Shown here piece by piece: positions 4,901 to 18,739 of a stretch of 33,767 nucleotides of DNA; within the stretch, counting starts at the first letter, position 1; the number at the start of each line of letters is the position of its first letter. A model generated the notes under the pieces. The model searched no databases, had not been told where the DNA came from, and worked only from the letters and a program-made list of their open reading frames with translations. Source of the DNA: an uncultured Clostridia bacterium (lineage in GTDB: Bacteria; Bacillota; Clostridia; Christensenellales; UBA1242); assembly GCA_949841045.1 (NCBI GenBank), contig CATKXS010000015.1, positions 1-33,767 of the forward strand. Direction: 5' to 3'. Position numbers and translations under genes: made by a program.

Positions 4901-7900
4901 CTTTTGACACAACCGAATATCAAATTAAATTCTTTGATGAGAATGGCAACTTAGTTGCTGACAATACAACATTTAAAATTTTAGTAAGAGATAGTTCAAA
5001 CACTCAAAATGCTGGAGATGAATCTCTCGCTTATAGAAATTATCCAAGCGGACACCTTTCTTTCAATGTAACTTCAGACGCGTCAAAACTCATGGTTTTG
5101 GCAAAAAATAGTTCTGGCGAATATGAATCTCTCGATTTCTCTACATATAGCCTATCAGGGAATTTATATTCGTTTGACAATGACGGGGTGATAAATTACA
5201 CTCATCTCTCAGGTGATGAGAGTTACACTTTGACCGATAAAATGTACAAATTCTCTTATTATACCCCTTCTAATAGCGCTCGCGAATTATACTTAAACTA
5301 CATTCCAGTCGCTGAAAATGGTTCAGTGCTTGAAAGCGTTATCCTCTACTACTACCCTTACGAGCGAAAAGTTCAAAGATATGATGGTGACAAAAATTAC
5401 TATTACTACTATGATTTGAAAGACACTTATACTCAAAAAATCAATATTTTCACTCATTCAGACAAAATTTACGAAACAGGAGCGGAAGAGTTATTCGAGA
5501 TAGCAATAGGCTCAGACAGTCTTCCACTTGCTGGAAAATATGTAATCGAAAGAATTTACAGAGATGATTCTACAACAAATCAATATGATTTCTTTAAAAG
5601 AACACTCTCTATCATCATTGATAATAAAAATCTTATCACTCCACTCGAAGCAGTTACTGACGAGAACAACAACGCTTCTCTTGAGAGTGTTGTTGGTGGA
5701 GATATTGTCCTTAGCATGTATAGCGGTGACAACAATGCATCAATTGAAGTCTCATTCCCTTCTTATAACGAGAATGGTCTTTCAACTGGTTCATTCTATA
5801 CTAAGGAAAACTTCAGCGAAAATGACAGTATTTCAAGTTTCTCAGTATCAAGCAACAAACTTCCATTATCGCTCTACATTCCTCAGTATAAATACACGGT
5901 TGCAAGCAGAAAATCAGTTAACATTTCAAATGGCGCAGAGTACAACGTAGTAAAAAATGATAACTTGTCATATTATGGAAATGCTTACTACACCTTTAAT
6001 TCAGAGACAAATCTTTATGACGTCTACGTTGAAGGCACTTTGGTTGACAGCTTTGGAAGAGAACAGCAAGCAATTGACTATCTCAGCACAACAGAAATAA
6101 AAGAATATCAGCTCCTCGTTGAAGTGAGAGCCACTGTTTACGAAAACAACAGAGAAGTAACTAAATATTACTATTCAAATGGCACAACAACAAATGGTTA
6201 TTTAAGACTTTATGAGGCAAGTGGTAAATTTGGAGCAATATCTAATAATGAACTTCAATATTTCTATCAAAGAGGAAATTATGTTGTAACAATGTACCAA
6301 GCATCAAACATTGGTACAACAAGCAGTTTCTACCTTCTTTATAAATTTGGATTTGAAATTATCTCACAAGCGCCTGATTTTGATGTTATTGGTGCAGATG
6401 GTTATAACCTTACTGCAACTAATCAGCCAAATATTTACTATACAAATTCTGATAGTCTAAAAGTGCAATGGGAAGTCCCAAAGAGCGAATATATAGCGAA
6501 AATTGACGAAAACAACATAACTATTAGAAGTTACCCTAGCGGTTTATTTACTAGGTCAGAAATTATAGATGAAACAACTTCAAAATATTTCACTATTGAC
6601 ACCTCTGCACTTTTAAATGCTAATAATAGTTACATTGAAATCACAATGCAGTATGAAGGTTATAACAGAAATTATTATTCTACTATTACAAAACGCATTT
6701 ACTTCGATAAGTCAATGCCAATTCAAAACCTTCAAAGTCTCATGACTCTCACAGAGCAAGCTACAAATGCATTTACAACCAATTATCAACTTATGTATAT
6801 GCGCGAATACTATGACTATAACAATGAAGAAGTCACACTTTCAAGCATAAGTGAGCTATCAAATATAAGTTATTCTTACTCGCTAAGCAGTGGTTATTTC
6901 AGATATTATAGTTATAACGTGACATCCGATTTCTTCACCTCTACCCTCACTCGCACAATCGCACAGGCGACAAATAATCCTTATGACACACAGTTTATCT
7001 ATTATAGAGAGGTAACAAATCTCAACACTTACATGCAAGTGGACAAAACTTCTTTCTCAGCAGGAAATTATTACTATATTTCAACAAATGAGACTATACT
7101 CGTAAATTGTGGTTACTACGAAATCGTAGAAATGGATTATGCTGGCAATATGGTGGTTTATCTAGTTCAAGTAACTTCATCTAATAGGGCCAATGACCCT
7201 GCCACTGAAAACACTGCTCTCACCTATTCAAACTTACAGACAGGCGAGAACATTGAAATTAGTAATGATGAAATCACAAATGGATACAACATCTATTCGA
7301 CAAGCGGATTTGAAATAAAATCTTTCAATTACAAATCTGACGATTGGGCTTACTTCACAGTTCGACTTGCAGGAGAAAGCGAAGTAAACTATATGAAATC
7401 ACCTTGGCTTGATGACAGTCAAGTATACAGACTCTCATATTCTACAAGTGGCATCAACTTTAGACAAACAAGTCTTGCTTCTATATTTGAAGAAATTCAA
7501 TCTTCTGCAAATAAGCATATGATGACTTTGACAAATAGAATAGAAGGGTCGTCACTTCCAATCTACATTTCAATTATGGACGCTTCACTTTCTACTCAAA
7601 AAGTTGAAGACCCAACCAAGACTTCTGCAATTTTGAACATTTCTATTCCAACCCCTGCCGAAGTTGAAAGTACAACGACAAGTTATATTTTCCCTCAGCA
7701 TATCACAATTTACCAATTTGACAACAATTTAACTGGCGAAAACAAATGGCGTACAATTATGATTGCTGACCAAAACAGTTATGGCACTTGGACACCAACG
7801 GCTGAATTCAGCTCTGCACTTTCTTACATTTCATTCAGGACTCTTGCAGGCAACAGGACTCTTCAGCTTACAATTAATCTTGGTGCAAACTCCTCTCAAA

Positions 7901-10302
7901 AAGTCAAGTATGAGATTGTTGACAATTTTGGAACGGTAACAACAGTTATCCAACTTGCAAATGAAGTAAGTTATAGAGAAATTTCAGGTAACAAGACTAT
8001 ACACAGCCTAACAGAAAATGATGGCTCTATTACCTACCTTTCATCTGATAAAATCAACTTCTCTTACAATGTGCTTCTTTACAATATTAGCGTATTTGAC
8101 AGAGATGGAATTGAAGTTACTGAAGAAATTTATTCAACTATAAATTCAAGCACAAACATTAGAACTCTTGAATTTAATCCAACAAAAGATGCATTCTTCG
8201 ATGATTATTATAAAATTATCGTAAAAGACCTTGAAGAGGACACCGAAATCAAAACTCTTCATGTGAGACTTTACAATAAACTTCCTTTCAGAACTAACAT
8301 TTCAAGTGAAGTTCAAGACGGCGGAATAATCTTCAATGATAAAAATCAACAACCTATTGACGAAAAGAATATTGGTCAAATTCCAAATGCAAGTGTTAAC
8401 TTCAATGGTAAAAATTACTATGCAACTGCCGATTATATTACAACTTTCTCATACAATGTTACTCTCCGTTTCTATAACGGACAAAGTCTTGGCTTTGAAG
8501 GACGTAACCACTATCAAGATGGATATGCATTCAGCGTATACCTCTCAAGCGATAACGGCCAGACATGGGTCAATATAAACAGCGTAAATTCTGATACAAA
8601 TGGTTATACAATTACTGGCGTTGGCGAATATATCGTGCTTGTTAAGTATGATAACGAAGACGTATTCACAGACATGTGCAAACTTTTCTTCTTATCAATT
8701 CTCGACTCTTCATCATCTTACTATTATATTACAGTTGATGGTCTAAATATTGATAAGTCAGATGTCAAATACACTTCTCTCGCTGGAAATACTTACGAAA
8801 TCAACTATATTGTAAGCGTTGATTATCAAGACAAGAACAACCGTCTTAAAATAACCACAAATGAAGATTTAAATGTTGCACTTTCACTTATCACAGTAGA
8901 TAGCACAGGAAGTAATGTAACTGTTGAAATTTATAGATATGAATGCACTGAATCAGTTGGAGAATTTACTATCATTTATATTGCAGAAACAAACAATATT
9001 ATAAGTACTTTCACGTACGAAACATCAACTGGCACTACAACTTCAATTAAAGATTTGAGTTCGGTAATTATTGTTGCTAACAGAGAAACAGAACCAAACT
9101 TTGATAAACTTAGAATCAACTTCTCTTCTAGCTATGGAATTGATTCAAATAAAATCAATATTGAAGTTACAAAACTATTTGATGGAACATATAAAACCAT
9201 TTACAGCCCAGTTTATTCAGACGGTGTTGATAGTTACATTTATCTGCCAGAACCTGGTAGTTACAGACTTAGAGTTTACGACTCATGTTCACCTGCCAAT
9301 GTTCAAACCTTTAATGGTAGCAGATTTATAGACGTAATATTCTTAAGTTCTGTTCCATTTACCGTTACAAGCACTAACGAAAATGGTGAGAATATCACAA
9401 CTGAGCCTATTCAAAAGGCTATATTCAATGGAAACGTTGTAATCAGACCAACTTATCTATCAAGCTATTATCAAGCCTCTAGAATGCCTTCTATAAGCGT
9501 TAAGAGGAATGGTACAGAATACACTGGTTATACACTCTCAAATAACACTTACACGTTCACAGCTTCTGGTTACTACTCTATAATATTCAATGCTACCTCG
9601 ATTACTGGTATTCCTGTTAGAACTGAAGAATATTTCTTCACAATAATAAACCAAAATGAATCAAGATATGCTTTTGAATTTACTGAGTTCGACAAATATT
9701 ACATTGAAAAAGTTGAAAAAAATGGCGTTGATATTACAGACGACCTTGTTTCAATCGGAAATTTCTCAAGTATCACAGTTGACGGAAAGAAATATATAAC
9801 TAATCTTACCCTCAATTATCTTGATGAAAAAACTGGCGGTGGAAGATATAAAATTACCATTAATCCAAACAACAACGAAATGAAAAACACCATCGGTGAA
9901 AACTTTACTTTCAGTCTCTGGATAAATATGGCTACCCCACCTATTAGTGTTTCAATCGGTGAAGGCGAGAAAACTACTAAAAACATTGTAATCACATTCA
10001 ATGTTCAAAATCTCTACCAAGCTGTTGGTGACTGCTATCTTCAAATAGGTACAACTATAAGACAATATAACCGTTCAAATATCAACTCTTATGGCACAAA
10101 CGAGAATATAACAATCCTAAACACTGGAACATATTATATTCAAATCTACACTGCAAGCGGTCAACTTCTCTACTCATATAAAGTAATTAAGTCTGAGCCA
10201 TTAAATGCATTCGCAATTATAGCCATTGTTGTTGGTGTAATCGCTGCTGGTGCAATAGTAGGTATCACCATCGCACTTAGAAAGAGACAAAAGATTAAAT
10301 AG
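1924..10302 (+). CDS. Giant (2792 aa) secreted, membrane-anchored surface protein with Ig-like/beta-sandwich-like repeats
   Basis: Uninterrupted ORF with SD (agaggtg). N-terminal signal-like MKKFFDSIKKLSLPLVLAIAFCVGGLVAF. C-terminal TM AFAIIAIVVGVIAAGAIVGITIALRKRQKIK. Recurrent Y..EV.D.AGN...F.ID type segments (YILEVYDQAGNSSFNIFLIDKSSP, YYEIVEMDYAGNMVVYLVQV). Confidence 0.9.
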   Translation: MKKFFDSIKKLSLPLVLAIAFCVGGLVAFKNSDNFLNASAVFQTKNELSNNLPEYVTFDSTTENDAYRLSNVGDTIYLFQNESHNDVIIGNQKIVRDTISVGGIEKTETNYYYQPSQSNDQVYYYFDFTSSLSLYYNLTTRDLENGEIGDNLLRSQSISNYISSVNSDTEISFIPQNTSFTPKQFNLSFKLNTLQEAISFDGNVVNLKNEGIYTLVIPVIEYYTTNGGITFTSTTRDIYYNFMIFNANTYFDVVTGKPRISNSSNVQEAMLTASSAFSTYYYYNFSSADMIDTLPSISFDPNKFALSVEYTDLELNSQLIFIEYQNEKLVALDEQGNELSEEDNFLALDINTQNANSASIAFSKIGSYDMHFSYLYTVNKNGQNLVYNLDFDNLSSNSVFRNKSQRMYVYGYATMYSDYANIDTLTNQPKNVDLKTYDTFNHYVNSADITSKVNNYAKDKNYSFSNDLRSSNPSNANPFDIVDLKEATEAAIKSLSIVPTSTNQTPIKFLTNTRNTPYSKFYKVTNNEGVVKLDEGVDFQGFNQNDPGTYVYIIQYQFDSFMSTSGTLQSALYHYQIFYFTVTNTFPTVSVLDGNFNEVYTNGFTNKNVYILNDAENNIYDAKVDITLSAQNYETKAYYFQDISIKELDAYGIHYQNFIKSTDEVGDKLYNDKVGGKSGVLIENTNRYANAKFTIKITSANTDKAGSRTFTIDTNEIKNITSRNVSLVSSTTYRIGDTFSSYNTNQPMIFSWDEKASGARTYGYVSYIPTEAINYYSSQDSDNLSDLLSRLNASDILPVSYKIDLASKSQWTEYSNSLSFNSLIQSTYVKTNDGFYILEVYDQAGNSSFNIFLIDKSSPLFIQEISSPTGVSRSIFSNSDCISVPETGVDISIKWLSNKAIKLENITSILSLQSYPYSYDVNNANEKLGTLLNDFFKLENNDNITTLSEITVNVQTGSNTVSTGISSYNGEYLVMPINSRAYIKEGDSPTFKPFDTTEYQIKFFDENGNLVADNTTFKILVRDSSNTQNAGDESLAYRNYPSGHLSFNVTSDASKLMVLAKNSSGEYESLDFSTYSLSGNLYSFDNDGVINYTHLSGDESYTLTDKMYKFSYYTPSNSARELYLNYIPVAENGSVLESVILYYYPYERKVQRYDGDKNYYYYYDLKDTYTQKINIFTHSDKIYETGAEELFEIAIGSDSLPLAGKYVIERIYRDDSTTNQYDFFKRTLSIIIDNKNLITPLEAVTDENNNASLESVVGGDIVLSMYSGDNNASIEVSFPSYNENGLSTGSFYTKENFSENDSISSFSVSSNKLPLSLYIPQYKYTVASRKSVNISNGAEYNVVKNDNLSYYGNAYYTFNSETNLYDVYVEGTLVDSFGREQQAIDYLSTTEIKEYQLLVEVRATVYENNREVTKYYYSNGTTTNGYLRLYEASGKFGAISNNELQYFYQRGNYVVTMYQASNIGTTSSFYLLYKFGFEIISQAPDFDVIGADGYNLTATNQPNIYYTNSDSLKVQWEVPKSEYIAKIDENNITIRSYPSGLFTRSEIIDETTSKYFTIDTSALLNANNSYIEITMQYEGYNRNYYSTITKRIYFDKSMPIQNLQSLMTLTEQATNAFTTNYQLMYMREYYDYNNEEVTLSSISELSNISYSYSLSSGYFRYYSYNVTSDFFTSTLTRTIAQATNNPYDTQFIYYREVTNLNTYMQVDKTSFSAGNYYYISTNETILVNCGYYEIVEMDYAGNMVVYLVQVTSSNRANDPATENTALTYSNLQTGENIEISNDEITNGYNIYSTSGFEIKSFNYKSDDWAYFTVRLAGESEVNYMKSPWLDDSQVYRLSYSTSGINFRQTSLASIFEEIQSSANKHMMTLTNRIEGSSLPIYISIMDASLSTQKVEDPTKTSAILNISIPTPAEVESTTTSYIFPQHITIYQFDNNLTGENKWRTIMIADQNSYGTWTPTAEFSSALSYISFRTLAGNRTLQLTINLGANSSQKVKYEIVDNFGTVTTVIQLANEVSYREISGNKTIHSLTENDGSITYLSSDKINFSYNVLLYNISVFDRDGIEVTEEIYSTINSSTNIRTLEFNPTKDAFFDDYYKIIVKDLEEDTEIKTLHVRLYNKLPFRTNISSEVQDGGIIFNDKNQQPIDEKNIGQIPNASVNFNGKNYYATADYITTFSYNVTLRFYNGQSLGFEGRNHYQDGYAFSVYLSSDNGQTWVNINSVNSDTNGYTITGVGEYIVLVKYDNEDVFTDMCKLFFLSILDSSSSYYYITVDGLNIDKSDVKYTSLAGNTYEINYIVSVDYQDKNNRLKITTNEDLNVALSLITVDSTGSNVTVEIYRYECTESVGEFTIIYIAETNNIISTFTYETSTGTTTSIKDLSSVIIVANRETEPNFDKLRINFSSSYGIDSNKINIEVTKLFDGTYKTIYSPVYSDGVDSYIYLPEPGSYRLRVYDSCSPANVQTFNGSRFIDVIFLSSVPFTVTSTNENGENITTEPIQKAIFNGNVVIRPTYLSSYYQASRMPSISVKRNGTEYTGYTLSNNTYTFTASGYYSIIFNATSITGIPVRTEEYFFTIINQNESRYAFEFTEFDKYYIEKVEKNGVDITDDLVSIGNFSSITVDGKKYITNLTLNYLDEKTGGGRYKITINPNNNEMKNTIGENFTFSLWINMATPPISVSIGEGEKTTKNIVITFNVQNLYQAVGDCYLQIGTTIRQYNRSNINSYGTNENITILNTGTYYIQIYTASGQLLYSYKVIKSEPLNAFAIIAIVVGVIAAGAIVGITIALRKRQKIK

Positions 10303-14602: not shown

Positions 14603-14872
14603 TTAAGTCTCAATTTCAGCGTCAACAAGCATAACAATGTCTTCCTTTTCGCAAGAAGATTTTACTACTTCAAAGTCAGTCGGTTGATTGAAATCTAAGT
14701 CATATTTTTCGATATATGAAAAATAAGCTTTAAGCATTTCTTTCGCGTAAAGATAAGCCTCTTCCATGAAAGAGCCATCAGTTGTAAGCTCAAGGTCAGG
14801 AATTAATACACGATAAACGTCTTCGTCCCTATCCTTAATAAAAATCGCAGGGTAAACAAAACTTTTCATCAA
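14603..14872 (-). CDS. HicB-like small protein
   Basis: MMKSFVYPAIFIKDRDEDVYRVLIPDLELTTDGSFMEEAYLYAKEMLKAYFSYIEKYDLDFNQPTDF resembles the HicB fold (ypaif...d...y.v.iPDL...T.GdtleEA...A...l). SD aggagc upstream. No HicA seen beside it. Confidence 0.7.
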   Translation of the reverse strand: MMKSFVYPAIFIKDRDEDVYRVLIPDLELTTDGSFMEEAYLYAKEMLKAYFSYIEKYDLDFNQPTDFEVVKSSCEKEDIVMLVDAEIET

Positions 14873-15346: not shown

Positions 15347-16858
15347 TTAAACCAAAATATACTCATCTTCTGGTGCTAGCGCTCTGTCGCGAACATTTTG
15401 AGATATTTTTTCAATCTGAGCTTTTATCTCATTTTCTGGAAGTTTTTCAAGTTCGCCGGCTTTCTTTGCTTCAATAATTCTTGAACATATATTATCAAGT
15501 TCTACAAGATTATCTTCTCCAAAGCGTCTATATACTTTATTAAAATCTTCACTGATTCCACATTCTTTCAAATCCTCTAAATTCTCTTCAAGAAAATCAT
15601 TTAAATAAGGGAATACGCTATGATAAACACTGGCATAAGATTTCTTATTGCAAATTTCAAAACCGTCTTCTCTCATGCGTGCACAAATTTTTTGAGTGAA
15701 GAATTCATTCATAATTTCATCTAAACCATGAAAATCATTGTTTTTATAGTATAGCCCGTTTTTAGCCATGCTTATACCAACTTTAAATTTTTCCATTTTT
15801 TCATCGCAAAACATAAAAGTCTGAACCGCATGCCCCATTTCATGAACAATAGTATCATCGGTAGTTGTCTTACTTGAACCGCCAACAAGAACATAAGACC
15901 TTTTAACTTTGTCGGTAAAACAACTAAAACATAAACCAACTGGTCCTTTTGGCTTATTTAACACACAAGCTCTTAAATCTTCTTCTACATCTTTTGCCTT
16001 TGTTTCAGGGAACACATTGCGTGCATCTAGACAGGCATCTGCAAATCCATTTTTAATGTTGTATAAAAGTTCCTTTCTTGCATGGTCTTCCTTTTGAAAT
16101 TCGGTCATAATCTTAAAAACTAAAAGTCCGCCAAGCACCTTTTTCCCCACAAGATTGTTTAAGTTTTCAGAAATCAAATATTCAGAAACAACATCTCCTG
16201 TTTGGATGTATTCAATTACATTTGCAGTAACTTTTTTAAGATTTACAAGATTTTCATCTGTCTTTGTAAGGTTATATTCTTTCAAAATCTTTTCACTGAT
16301 TTTTTCTTTCCACCTTGAATAGAAAGAACTTTCAATTAAATCAATTTCACTCTTCCAAGGAGCAACACAAAGGCGTTCACGCTCTTCATTAATTTTTCTC
16401 GTCTCATCACGATATTTTTTGTAAATTTCGTCAATTTTGCCGATTTTTTGTGAAAAATCCTTGAAATTATTGTCATTTTTAAGAAATTCTGCTAAATTTT
16501 CAGGTTTTATCCCAAATCCATAATAAGCAAACTGATAGATTTCTGTCTGATAATAACCATTTAAATCGATGTTGTCTTTCCACTTATCAAGGTCCTCAAA
16601 ATCACCAAACCCTAAGTCATTTAACTTTAAGCCCAACTCTTTCTTGCATTTTTTGAAGACATGTCTAAGACTATAATCTATCTTTTCTGCATAGCTCTCA
16701 GCAATTGTATCATGGTCATCTTTAAAAATGTATTTAACATCTTTAAATCTTTCAACAATCTTTTCCCTATTCTCTTCGCCAAAGAACTCGACAAAATATT
16801 CAATTACTTTGTCAAGTTTACCTTCTAATGGATTGTATTGATTTGTAATTTCTGCCAT
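15347..16858 (-). CDS. M3-like (oligoendopeptidase-type) zinc metallopeptidase, putative
   Basis: HExxH motif in DDTIVHEMGHAVQTFMF followed by GLDEIMNEFFTQKI as candidate third-ligand Glu region. Confidence 0.7.
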   Translation of the reverse strand: MAEITNQYNPLEGKLDKVIEYFVEFFGEENREKIVERFKDVKYIFKDDHDTIAESYAEKIDYSLRHVFKKCKKELGLKLNDLGFGDFEDLDKWKDNIDLNGYYQTEIYQFAYYGFGIKPENLAEFLKNDNNFKDFSQKIGKIDEIYKKYRDETRKINEERERLCVAPWKSEIDLIESSFYSRWKEKISEKILKEYNLTKTDENLVNLKKVTANVIEYIQTGDVVSEYLISENLNNLVGKKVLGGLLVFKIMTEFQKEDHARKELLYNIKNGFADACLDARNVFPETKAKDVEEDLRACVLNKPKGPVGLCFSCFTDKVKRSYVLVGGSSKTTTDDTIVHEMGHAVQTFMFCDEKMEKFKVGISMAKNGLYYKNNDFHGLDEIMNEFFTQKICARMREDGFEICNKKSYASVYHSVFPYLNDFLEENLEDLKECGISEDFNKVYRRFGEDNLVELDNICSRIIEAKKAGELEKLPENEIKAQIEKISQNVRDRALAPEDEYILV

Positions 16859-16915: not shown

Positions 16916-16951
16916 AAAAAATCACCTCCTTTCGAGATGATTATTTTTATT
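16916..16951 (-). repeat. 36-bp direct repeat copy A; doubles as XRE1 terminator and contains GAAAGGAGGTGAT (perfect SD) on minus strand
   Basis: aaaaaatcacctcctttcgagatgattatttttatt, 35/36 identical to 17796-17831. Minus-strand hairpin AATCATCTC-GAAAG-GAGGTGATT then TTTTT. Confidence 0.9.
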
Positions 16952-16987
16952 GACTTGAATAACCTAATTTAATGTGTTGTATTTAAT

Positions 16988-17194
16988 TTAAAAATCCGAA
17001 ATACCTAATAAATAATCTGCACTCACATCAAAAAATATTGCTATACTTTTTAGCATTGTCAAACTAGGTTCAATTTTGCCTGTCTCATACTTCGCGATAG
17101 TAGATTTGTCTACATTAAGTCTTTCTGCAAGTTCAACTTGCGATAACCCCTTCTCCTGCCTCAGGTATTTTAACTTTTGTCCAAATTTTTCCAT
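16988..17194 (-). CDS. XRE-family HTH regulator (XRE1)
   Basis: FGQKLKYLRQEKGLSQVELAERLNVDKSTIAKYETGKIEPSLTMLKSIAIFFDVSADYLLG. Confidence 0.93.
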   Translation of the reverse strand: MEKFGQKLKYLRQEKGLSQVELAERLNVDKSTIAKYETGKIEPSLTMLKSIAIFFDVSADYLLGISDF

Positions 17195-17220
17195 AATTAT
17201 TCCTCTTTTTCTTTACATTC

Positions 17221-17265
17221 TGACAGAAAATCAGTATAATTACTTTAAAACTGATTATAAATCAG
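17221..17265. promoter_or_regulatory. Candidate XRE operator cluster in divergent promoter region
   Basis: CTGACAGAAAATCAGT, then ACTGATTATAAATCAG (CTGATT-ATA-AATCAG). The second element recurs upstream of XRE2. Confidence 0.65.
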
Positions 17266-17281
17266 CGTAAAGGAGGAAAAA

Positions 17282-17542
17282 ATGGACAACTTTTTATATA
17301 CTGCAATAAAAAACGATGTCGAGAGACATCTAAAATATTTGAGAATTTTTGAAATTGATAAAGTATCATTACATATCTGTCCATGTAGATATATAAGAAA
17401 CAGATACTTATTAAAAAATAAAAATAATGTAAAAGAATTATGTGAAATTTTTAATGTCAACAATATTGATGACTTATCTTACGAAATACTAAAACAAATA
17501 TTAAGTGAAAATCAGTATATATCTTCTAAACCCAAAAGATAA
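17282..17542 (+). CDS. 86-aa uncharacterised protein of the XRE module
   Basis: Very strong SD (aaaggagg) 6-7 nt before ATG. MDNFLYTAIKNDVERHLKYLRIFEIDKVSLHICPCRYIRNRYLLKNKNNVKELCEIFNVNNIDDLSYEILKQILSENQ. 3' end overlaps XRE2 antisense by 31 nt. Confidence 0.75.
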   Translation: MDNFLYTAIKNDVERHLKYLRIFEIDKVSLHICPCRYIRNRYLLKNKNNVKELCEIFNVNNIDDLSYEILKQILSENQYISSKPKR

Positions 17543-17727
17543 TCAGTACTAACCCTAAAATAAATTGCTAGGGTTTTAACCATATTCACACTAGGCTCTA
17601 TTTTATCAGTTTCATATTTAGCTATTGTAGATTTGTCTACATTTAGTTCCTCTGCGAGCTGAACTTGTGTTAATCCTTTTTCAGCGCGAAGAAGTTTTAA
17701 TCTCTTTCCAAAAGTATTATCTTCCAT
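17512..17727 (-). CDS. XRE-family HTH regulator (XRE2), paralogue of XRE1
   Basis: FGKRLKLLRAEKGLTQVQLAEELNVDKSTIAKYETDKIEPSVNMVKTLAIYFRVSTDYLLG; shares NVDKSTIAKYET.KIEPS with XRE1. Confidence 0.93.
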   Translation of the reverse strand: MEDNTFGKRLKLLRAEKGLTQVQLAEELNVDKSTIAKYETDKIEPSVNMVKTLAIYFRVSTDYLLGLEDIY

Positions 17728-17765
17728 AATATTATTATGACAAAAAATAGGATATAAAAACCAAT

Positions 17766-17782
17766 AACTGATTATAAATCAG
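17766..17782. promoter_or_regulatory. Candidate XRE operator upstream of XRE2
   Basis: Perfect inverted repeat ACTGATT-ATA-AATCAGT, same core as at 17250-17265. Confidence 0.65.
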
Positions 17783-17795
17783 TATCAATATAAAT

Positions 17796-17831
17796 AAAAA
17801 ATCACCCCCTTTCGAGATGATTATTTTTATT
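17796..17831 (-). repeat. 36-bp direct repeat copy B; doubles as terminator of the nucleotidyltransferase gene
   Basis: aaaaaatcaccccctttcgagatgattatttttatt; one mismatch to 16916-16951. Confidence 0.9.
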
Positions 17832-18739
17832 TAGTTTTCCCACAATCTTTCTGGGTATTTTCCGTTGGCTTTTTGCTCCTTTATAAATTCTTTGAATTCT
17901 TTGAGGTCCTCAGCATATGTAATTCCTCGCCAAACGGATTTAGTTGGTATAACTTCTACTTTTGCTTTGCTATTTTTGACCAAATCACTTAATAATATTG
18001 GTAAAAGATATTCGACTGAAGATAAATCTTCTTTATTTTTCTCTAAGAAATCTATAAAACCTTTTTTTAAATGAGAAAAAATATCTTTGGAAAAAGCAAA
18101 CAAATTCATGTTGACTGGAGTGGCTTTATCTACAACTTGCCAAGCTTCTTGTTTGTTATCTAAAGGTCTCGATATAACCTCGCCATTCTCGTCATGTTTT
18201 ACTTCCGATTCAACCATTCCCATCAGCAAATTATTTTCAACTGAGCAAACTCCTCTTTTTACCGTACCTTTATCAGATAGCGTCTCTCCAAGACGATATG
18301 CAACTAAAGAAAACTCATTTTTCTTCAATTCTCTTTTAAGGAATTTACTTACATCTTCAAATGCTTCTCTGCCATAAAAATCATCTGCGTTTATAACCAC
18401 AAAATTGTCATCAATAGCCTCTTCTGCACAAAGTATGGCATGGGCTGTTCCTAAAGGTTTTACCCTATTTTCTGGTATAACATATTTTTCAGGGACATTT
18501 TTATTGTTTTGAAATGCGTAGACGGTTTTTATTCTTTTTTCTACCCTTTTGCCTACTGTTTCTCTAAAAATATCTAAATTTTCTTCTTTAATGATAAATA
18601 CGACTTTATCAAATCCGCTTTTTATTGCGTCAAAAATTGAGTAATCGAGAATAAAGTTCTTCTCTTCATCGACAGGTTGGAGCTGTTTAAGTCCACCAAA
18701 TCGGCTACCAAGTCCTCCCGCCATAATTACAAGTTCCAT
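17831..18739 (-). CDS. Sugar nucleotidyltransferase (NTP_transferase family)
   Basis: MELVIMAGGLGSRFGGLKQLQPV...PLGTAHAILCAEEAIDDNFVVINADDFYG. Confidence 0.9.
   Translation of the reverse strand: MELVIMAGGLGSRFGGLKQLQPVDEEKNFILDYSIFDAIKSGFDKVVFIIKEENLDIFRETVGKRVEKRIKTVYAFQNNKNVPEKYVIPENRVKPLGTAHAILCAEEAIDDNFVVINADDFYGREAFEDVSKFLKRELKKNEFSLVAYRLGETLSDKGTVKRGVCSVENNLLMGMVESEVKHDENGEVISRPLDNKQEAWQVVDKATPVNMNLFAFSKDIFSHLKKGFIDFLEKNKEDLSSVEYLLPILLSDLVKNSKAKVEVIPTKSVWRGITYAEDLKEFKEFIKEQKANGKYPERLWEN

Follow-up and report, generated by a model that had tools for sequence, protein, structure and literature searches.

A genus-wide family of XRE/DUF6794 cassettes whose edges can carry duplicated terminators

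Group IIC introns are mobile DNA elements that recognize terminator hairpins as insertion targets (PMC3898094). The sites of the small cassette described here would resemble theirs in this respect, although the cassette contains neither an intron RNA nor a reverse transcriptase. We know of no description of a duplicated terminator after the insertion of such an intron. In its gene content the cassette recalls the XRE-DUF397 pairs (Scr1/Scr2) and the XRE-type toxin-antitoxin (TA) loci, where an XRE regulator also adjoins a small DUF protein, but it differs from them in its divergent/convergent gene order, its two XREs and its unrelated DUF. The XRE-DUF397 pairs were proposed as TA systems and did not behave as such (PMC6262351). 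Lambda-type cI/cro switches share with the unit two small HTH proteins, divergent promoters and repeated palindromic operators inside these promoters; however, both XRE genes of the cassette run in the same direction around a third gene, their products consist of the HTH only, with no protease or oligomerisation domain, and no phage genes are present. To our knowledge, no member of DUF6794 (PF20594), the family to which the product of this third gene is related, has been characterised, and a full-text literature search returned no paper mentioning DUF6794. Outside the genus, DUF6794 proteins stand alone (some look secreted) or are fused, e.g., to a microbial PARG domain, and they are mostly not encoded between two XRE genes, unlike the unfused protein considered here, which itself scores below the family cut-off.

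The window, i.e., the whole stretch of 33,767 bp from an uncultured Clostridia bacterium (genome G000) that was analysed, contains an 844-bp interval between two direct repeats, in which XRE1 (minus strand), ORF86 (plus strand) and XRE2 (minus strand) follow one another. XRE1 (16988-17194, 68 aa) is a repressor-type HTH_3 protein (PF01381, E=6e-20, 71.5 bits) and XRE2 (17512-17727, 71 aa) another HTH_3 protein (PF01381, E=1.6e-16, 60.5 bits), both well above the cut-off of 23. The two are 71% identical over 65 aa, and the Pfam search found in each the DNA-binding domain alone and nothing further; their PADLOC matches were dismissed as generic HTH matches. ORF86 (17282-17542, 86 aa) has the Shine-Dalgarno sequence AAAGGAGG (17269-17276, plus strand) before its ATG. 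XRE2 is convergent with ORF86 and overlaps its 3' end by 31 bp, and the overlap is the same in genome G062, whose XRE1 and XRE2 orthologues are 75% and 82% identical to those of the window. No recombinase ORF is present within the 844-bp unit. The flanking genes, both on the minus strand, encode a nucleotidyltransferase (17831-18739; NTP_transferase, PF00483, E=1e-13) and a peptidase-like protein (15347-16858) with a weak DUF6055 match below cut-off, which had earlier been called a peptidase. A preliminary description of this DNA had reported two paralogous minus-strand XREs around a plus-strand 86-aa ORF, a strong Shine-Dalgarno sequence for this ORF and the lack of an encoded recombinase, and on each of these points the coordinates and searches agree with it.

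Against PF20594, ORF86 reaches 14.9 bits (E=0.028), below the curated cut-off of 27.1 bits, and four of the five further genus homologues tested reach 28.4-35.2 bits, above it. These relatives have the HF-x-LG-x-YIRN core in common with the family. Residues I9, H31, R39, N40, D63 and S66 are invariant in the genus alignment, and the conserved H...YIRN core (H31, R39, N40, with D63 and S66) is present in the alignment with above-cut-off members, ORF86 itself carrying an H-x6-IRN motif region. Judged from its sequence, ORF86 is a divergent DUF6794 member. Its AlphaFold model (pLDDT 82) comprises four helices and gave no match at E <= 0.001 in a fold search against the PDB and viral structures; a profile search against PDB sequences gave matches to SCIN-D at E 0.05 only, which were treated as chance. 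The HMM and structure search of the 86-aa protein that had been proposed earlier thus ended in a divergent DUF6794 relationship and no significant structural match. ORF86 matches no PADLOC or NCBIfam entry and no PHROG, and the phage, plasmid and viral-contig collections contain no homologue of the kind that a phage or plasmid module should have there. In Lachnospiraceae, one protein (L174, 2819-4132) combines a microbial PARG catalytic domain with a DUF6794-like C-terminal part, with an XRE gene adjoining, and at another Clostridiales locus (L175) a DUF6794 gene is followed by an XRE gene.

A promoter matching the consensus at 11 of 12 positions (TTTACA-17-TATAAT, 17212-17240, plus strand) precedes ORF86, and the 17-bp spacer between its -35 and -10 elements is filled by the palindrome CTGACAGAAAATCAG (CTGA-N7-TCAG, 17220-17234), the candidate operator O1, the position of which is conserved throughout the type I modules that have XRE1 (12/12). 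O2 (CTGATTATAAATCAG, 17251-17265) lies 31 bp from O1 and overlaps a putative XRE1 -35 element (17261-17256, minus strand), and O3, again CTGATTATAAATCAG, lies upstream of XRE2 (17768-17782) within a 17-nt match to the O2 region. Two types, which differ in their operators, can be told apart among the 24 modules examined: CTGA-N7-TCAG precedes ORF86 by about 62 and 31 bp where a type I XRE1 is present (12/12), and GCAC-N4-GTGC by about 57 and 27 bp in type II modules (9/10, one mismatch being allowed in one site), with no module among the 24 carrying the sites of the other type. The third site upstream of XRE2 was detected in 7/9 type I and in all six type II modules (two of them with one mismatch). 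The control region of ORF86 and XRE1 has changed little between the window genome and G062, with O1 and its surroundings almost unchanged, and ORF86 is 62% identical. At locus L048 (G085; 7767-8794), XREs of a different kind stand in place of XRE1, and both operators before ORF86 are gone; XRE2 retains its own CTGA operator there. At locus L053 (G036; 6433-6675), the ORF86 homologue next to secA is intact, no XRE gene was detected near it and the operators are missing, and the protein can thus persist without repressors. Because O1 lies inside the promoter spacer, repression of ORF86 by the XREs appears to be the best reading, and together with autorepression it would account for the conserved sites, their overlap with promoters and the match between site and regulator. 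The earlier proposal of a regulatory cassette or switch is borne out insofar as the unit is small, self-contained and of recurring architecture, with type-matched operators; the repression itself is predicted from these sites.

The direct repeats, copy A (16916-16951) and copy B (17796-17831), have the same orientation and are identical at 35 of 36 nt, and both were recognized by a terminator scan as minus-strand terminators with nine pairs plus a T-tail. Copy A, an intrinsic terminator 36 bp behind the XRE1 stop, forms the hairpin AATCATCTC-GAAAG-GAGGTGATT followed by a T-run (-11.5 kcal/mol, z -3.5), and copy B (-12.5 kcal/mol, z -6.0) is the terminator of the nucleotidyltransferase gene, including at 17831 the last base of its stop codon. 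In a pattern search of the 1.16-Mb genome allowing up to three mismatches, the core of the 36-mer had exactly two matches, both of them the window copies, and the reversed pattern used as a control had none. The earlier picture of an approximately 844-bp module bounded by 36-bp repeats differing at one position, one of them a terminator with the last nucleotidyltransferase stop-codon base, holds in full, and the 36-mer did not prove to be a common terminator repeated genome-wide, an outcome that had been named as fatal to it. Common terminators were likewise rejected by pattern searches in G002 and G078, paralogous coding repeats derived from XRE1 and XRE2 are excluded by position, and REP-like dispersed repeats, which do occur at locus L132, are unlike those of the window. 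The plus strand of copy A contains at 16920-16932 the sequence ATCACCTCCTTTC, which we take to be the universal 3' tail of 16S rRNA, so that the minus strand reads as a perfect extended Shine-Dalgarno sequence inside a terminator; the single base by which copy B differs falls within this stretch.

Homologues of ORF86 were found by profile search in 29 of 112 genomes of the same genus, a few of them weak or broken, and by single-protein search in 32 of 200 relatives (profile A1 was too diverse for the contig scan, for which profile A2 was used). Outside the genus, 197 sampled genomes of the family gave weak matches only, and a search of 250 genomes from the phylum with PF20594 gave one match, which indicates that DUF6794 is rare there. 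Most homologues occur in the arrangement XRE, ORF86, XRE seen in the window or in its XRE1-ORF86 half. Clustering of the neighbouring genes revealed recurrent sites beside secA, which is often the neighbour, next to the conserved gene block c6-c9, beside c4/c10, behind c56 and beside c57/c60, in addition to singletons, and one genome (G078) carries two modules. Broken or truncated copies of ORF86 in G130, G135, G006 and G064 are as expected of accessory genes. The window module belongs to a genus-wide, type-matched XRE/DUF6794 cassette family, the edges of which can carry duplicated terminators.

Near-identical terminators at both edges are present in 4/24 modules, namely those of the window (35/36 identical), G002 (30/31), G078 (26/28) and G116 (24/25), and their sequence is different in each species. 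The scores of these edge pairs (33, 28, 22 and 22, respectively) exceed the maximum of 18 among 552 control pairings of edges from different same-genus modules; the other 20 modules have no significant flanking repeat. When 658 kb of same-genus DNA were scanned for near-identical terminator-shaped repeats at most 4 kb apart, such pairs were almost confined to module edges, the further matches being a dispersed-repeat region (L132), a REP-like repeat (L055), a tRNA region (L061) and, to the left of another module, a pair at L054. The pairs are unique in the window genome and in G002, and local in G078. In G002, the repeat takes in the end of a Nudix gene, with its final codons and stop (KSTTK*), and at the opposite edge these five codons and the stop form the end of XRE1. 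In G116, a copy of the mnmA terminator stands on the tRNA side, directly behind ORF86. Its relative G127, with an MnmA 93% identical, has recognisably the same hairpin on the mnmA side, a lone XRE with one GCAC operator behind this terminator, and an unrelated tRNA-Ser terminator, a comparison that suggests that the tRNA-side copy of G116 is the derived one. A further difference between the two genomes is the loss of XRE2, and the copy could therefore stem from a rearrangement instead of an insertion.

Further repeats occur in G078, G113 and G119. In G078 (L049, 6390-6812), the edge terminator recurs as a third copy 420 bp outside the module, and the stretch that separates this copy from the one at the module edge contains a short minus-strand gene with no clear ATG, as though a second unit had boundaries of the same kind. 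In G113 (L054, 30-239), at the end of a contig and directly to the left of XRE1, there are two identical copies, 162 bp apart, of a 48-bp repeat that includes a terminator, and in G119 (L132, 460-930) dispersed repeat units fill the interval between secA and the 89-aa gene, including identical 31-bp hairpins 427 bp apart.

Related modules lie beside secA in deep branches of the genus, and the sister module of the window unit, in G062 (100/99 support), lies without repeats on the secA side of the nucleotidyltransferase gene, which is thus found on opposite sides of the module in the two genomes; these arrangements mark the neighbourhood as an old home of such modules with repeated gain, loss or rearrangement. 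In G067, the order is 89-aa gene, nucleotidyltransferase gene and secA, with neither the module nor the 36-mer, contrary to the possibility, raised earlier, that all relatives carry the module at this place; in G010, the interval is occupied by different genes. An empty site with one 36-bp copy, for which the preliminary description had called, was not found, as no such terminator lies behind the nucleotidyltransferase gene in G067, G010 or G062, and behind the c56 gene of G002 the comparison met different neighbours in G127, G116 and G094. The near identity of the two repeats marks an event in the window lineage as recent. For the whole module, "recently acquired" is too simple in view of the secA modules of deep branches and the sister module nearby. 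The peptidase-like gene, a multi-copy paralogue that is not in this interval in relatives, is an addition of the window lineage; matching stretches number at least 10 in its own genome and as many as 14 in relatives, and they form clusters at other loci. The 89-aa gene (14603-14872), which lies between secA and secE in many relatives, has weak HicB-like antitoxin similarity, and the interval from it to secA is a hotspot of gene turnover.

The reading of all this that we regard as somewhat probable is a small accessory cassette, carrying an XRE-silenced DUF6794 gene, that settles at gene 3' ends with duplication of the terminator. One or two XRE repressors would switch off the DUF6794 gene, their dimers presumably binding the three palindromic operators in the ORF86 promoter, in the XRE1 promoter and 5' leader of ORF86, and upstream of XRE2, so that the unit would be autoregulated and ORF86 normally silent. 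ORF86 could, with low confidence, be the effector of the switch or its anti-repressor. The cassette would settle between genes, at their 3' ends, and in recent cases the host terminator would end up on both sides, the neighbour keeping a terminator and the last XRE gene gaining one. Copy B of the nucleotidyltransferase gene and copy A of XRE1 would be such a pair, arisen by an insertion, with machinery that the unit does not encode, or by a local rearrangement, with duplication of the terminator. Support for the cassette comes from the recurring architecture at several sites, the matching of operators and regulators, the terminator pairs above controls and the comparison of G127 with G116. Insertion with terminator duplication is our first choice, and duplication with deletion at a resident module its main rival; against insertion stand the 20 of 24 modules that lack a significant repeat, the closest sister module in G062 among them, the missing single-copy empty site and the nucleotidyltransferase relatives without the 36-mer. 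In this main rival, which we consider rather unlikely, the module would be an old resident at which local copying, a tandem duplication with subsequent deletion, or gene conversion produced the second terminator, and the need of XRE1 or of the neighbour for a terminator would have preserved it. The old residence near secA, the position of the nucleotidyltransferase gene on opposite sides of the module, which duplication and deletion can explain, and the appearance of the G116 copy together with XRE2 loss all fit such a course, but general copying should also affect other genes, and the pairs in the 658-kb scan are almost confined to module edges. That two terminators, which share the A-tract/stem/T-tract form, are alike by chance, or that the genome reuses one terminator sequence, is contradicted by the two lone copies within three mismatches and by controls far below the observed pairs, which leave it hardly any probability.

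The repeats could also be attL/attR-like sites of an excisable cassette served by a trans-acting recombinase, as their direct orientation, near identity, clean predicted junction and a geometry common to three other species might suggest. We hold this to be very unlikely, as the four repeats have four entirely different sequences, each equal to the terminator of a local gene and unlike a conserved att core, no recombinase lies in the unit and most modules have no repeats. The earlier phrase "acquired or excisable" stands in part, in that the cassette comes and goes between related genomes, and three other species share the architecture with a different terminator; excision finds no support, as the search in G067, G010 and G062 gave no single-copy empty site. 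As to function, a type II TA system in which ORF86 is the toxin and the two XREs are the antitoxins would agree with the small size, the XRE partners, the patchy presence and the decayed copies in several genomes. It is nevertheless unlikely, since the genes are divergent and convergent, ORF86 lying on the strand opposite to both XREs in the window and likewise in relatives, instead of in one co-transcribed operon, the intact ORF86 of G036 persists with no detected XRE neighbour, ORF86 has no PADLOC or NCBIfam match, and the XRE-DUF397 pairs, which were also called TA, did not behave so (PMC6262351). Returning to insertion with terminator duplication, a bolder form of it, which we consider doubtful, would make the unit a non-autonomous mobile regulatory cassette that targets terminators as hairpins and copies the hairpin in its entirety when it inserts, with a DUF6794 effector under XRE control as its cargo.

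With the present comparison, DUF6794 gains a recurrent regulatory context and operators that can be tested. If the bolder proposal is true, each hairpin-duplicating insertion would preserve proper termination of the genes on either side and insulate the repressors, and if the terminator duplication belongs to the insertion reaction, it would represent an unusual mode of target duplication, 25-36 bp long, hairpin-shaped and independent of sequence. Arrival at a terminator, together with the copying of this terminator, may be a route by which very small genomes accept genes without disturbance of their neighbours.
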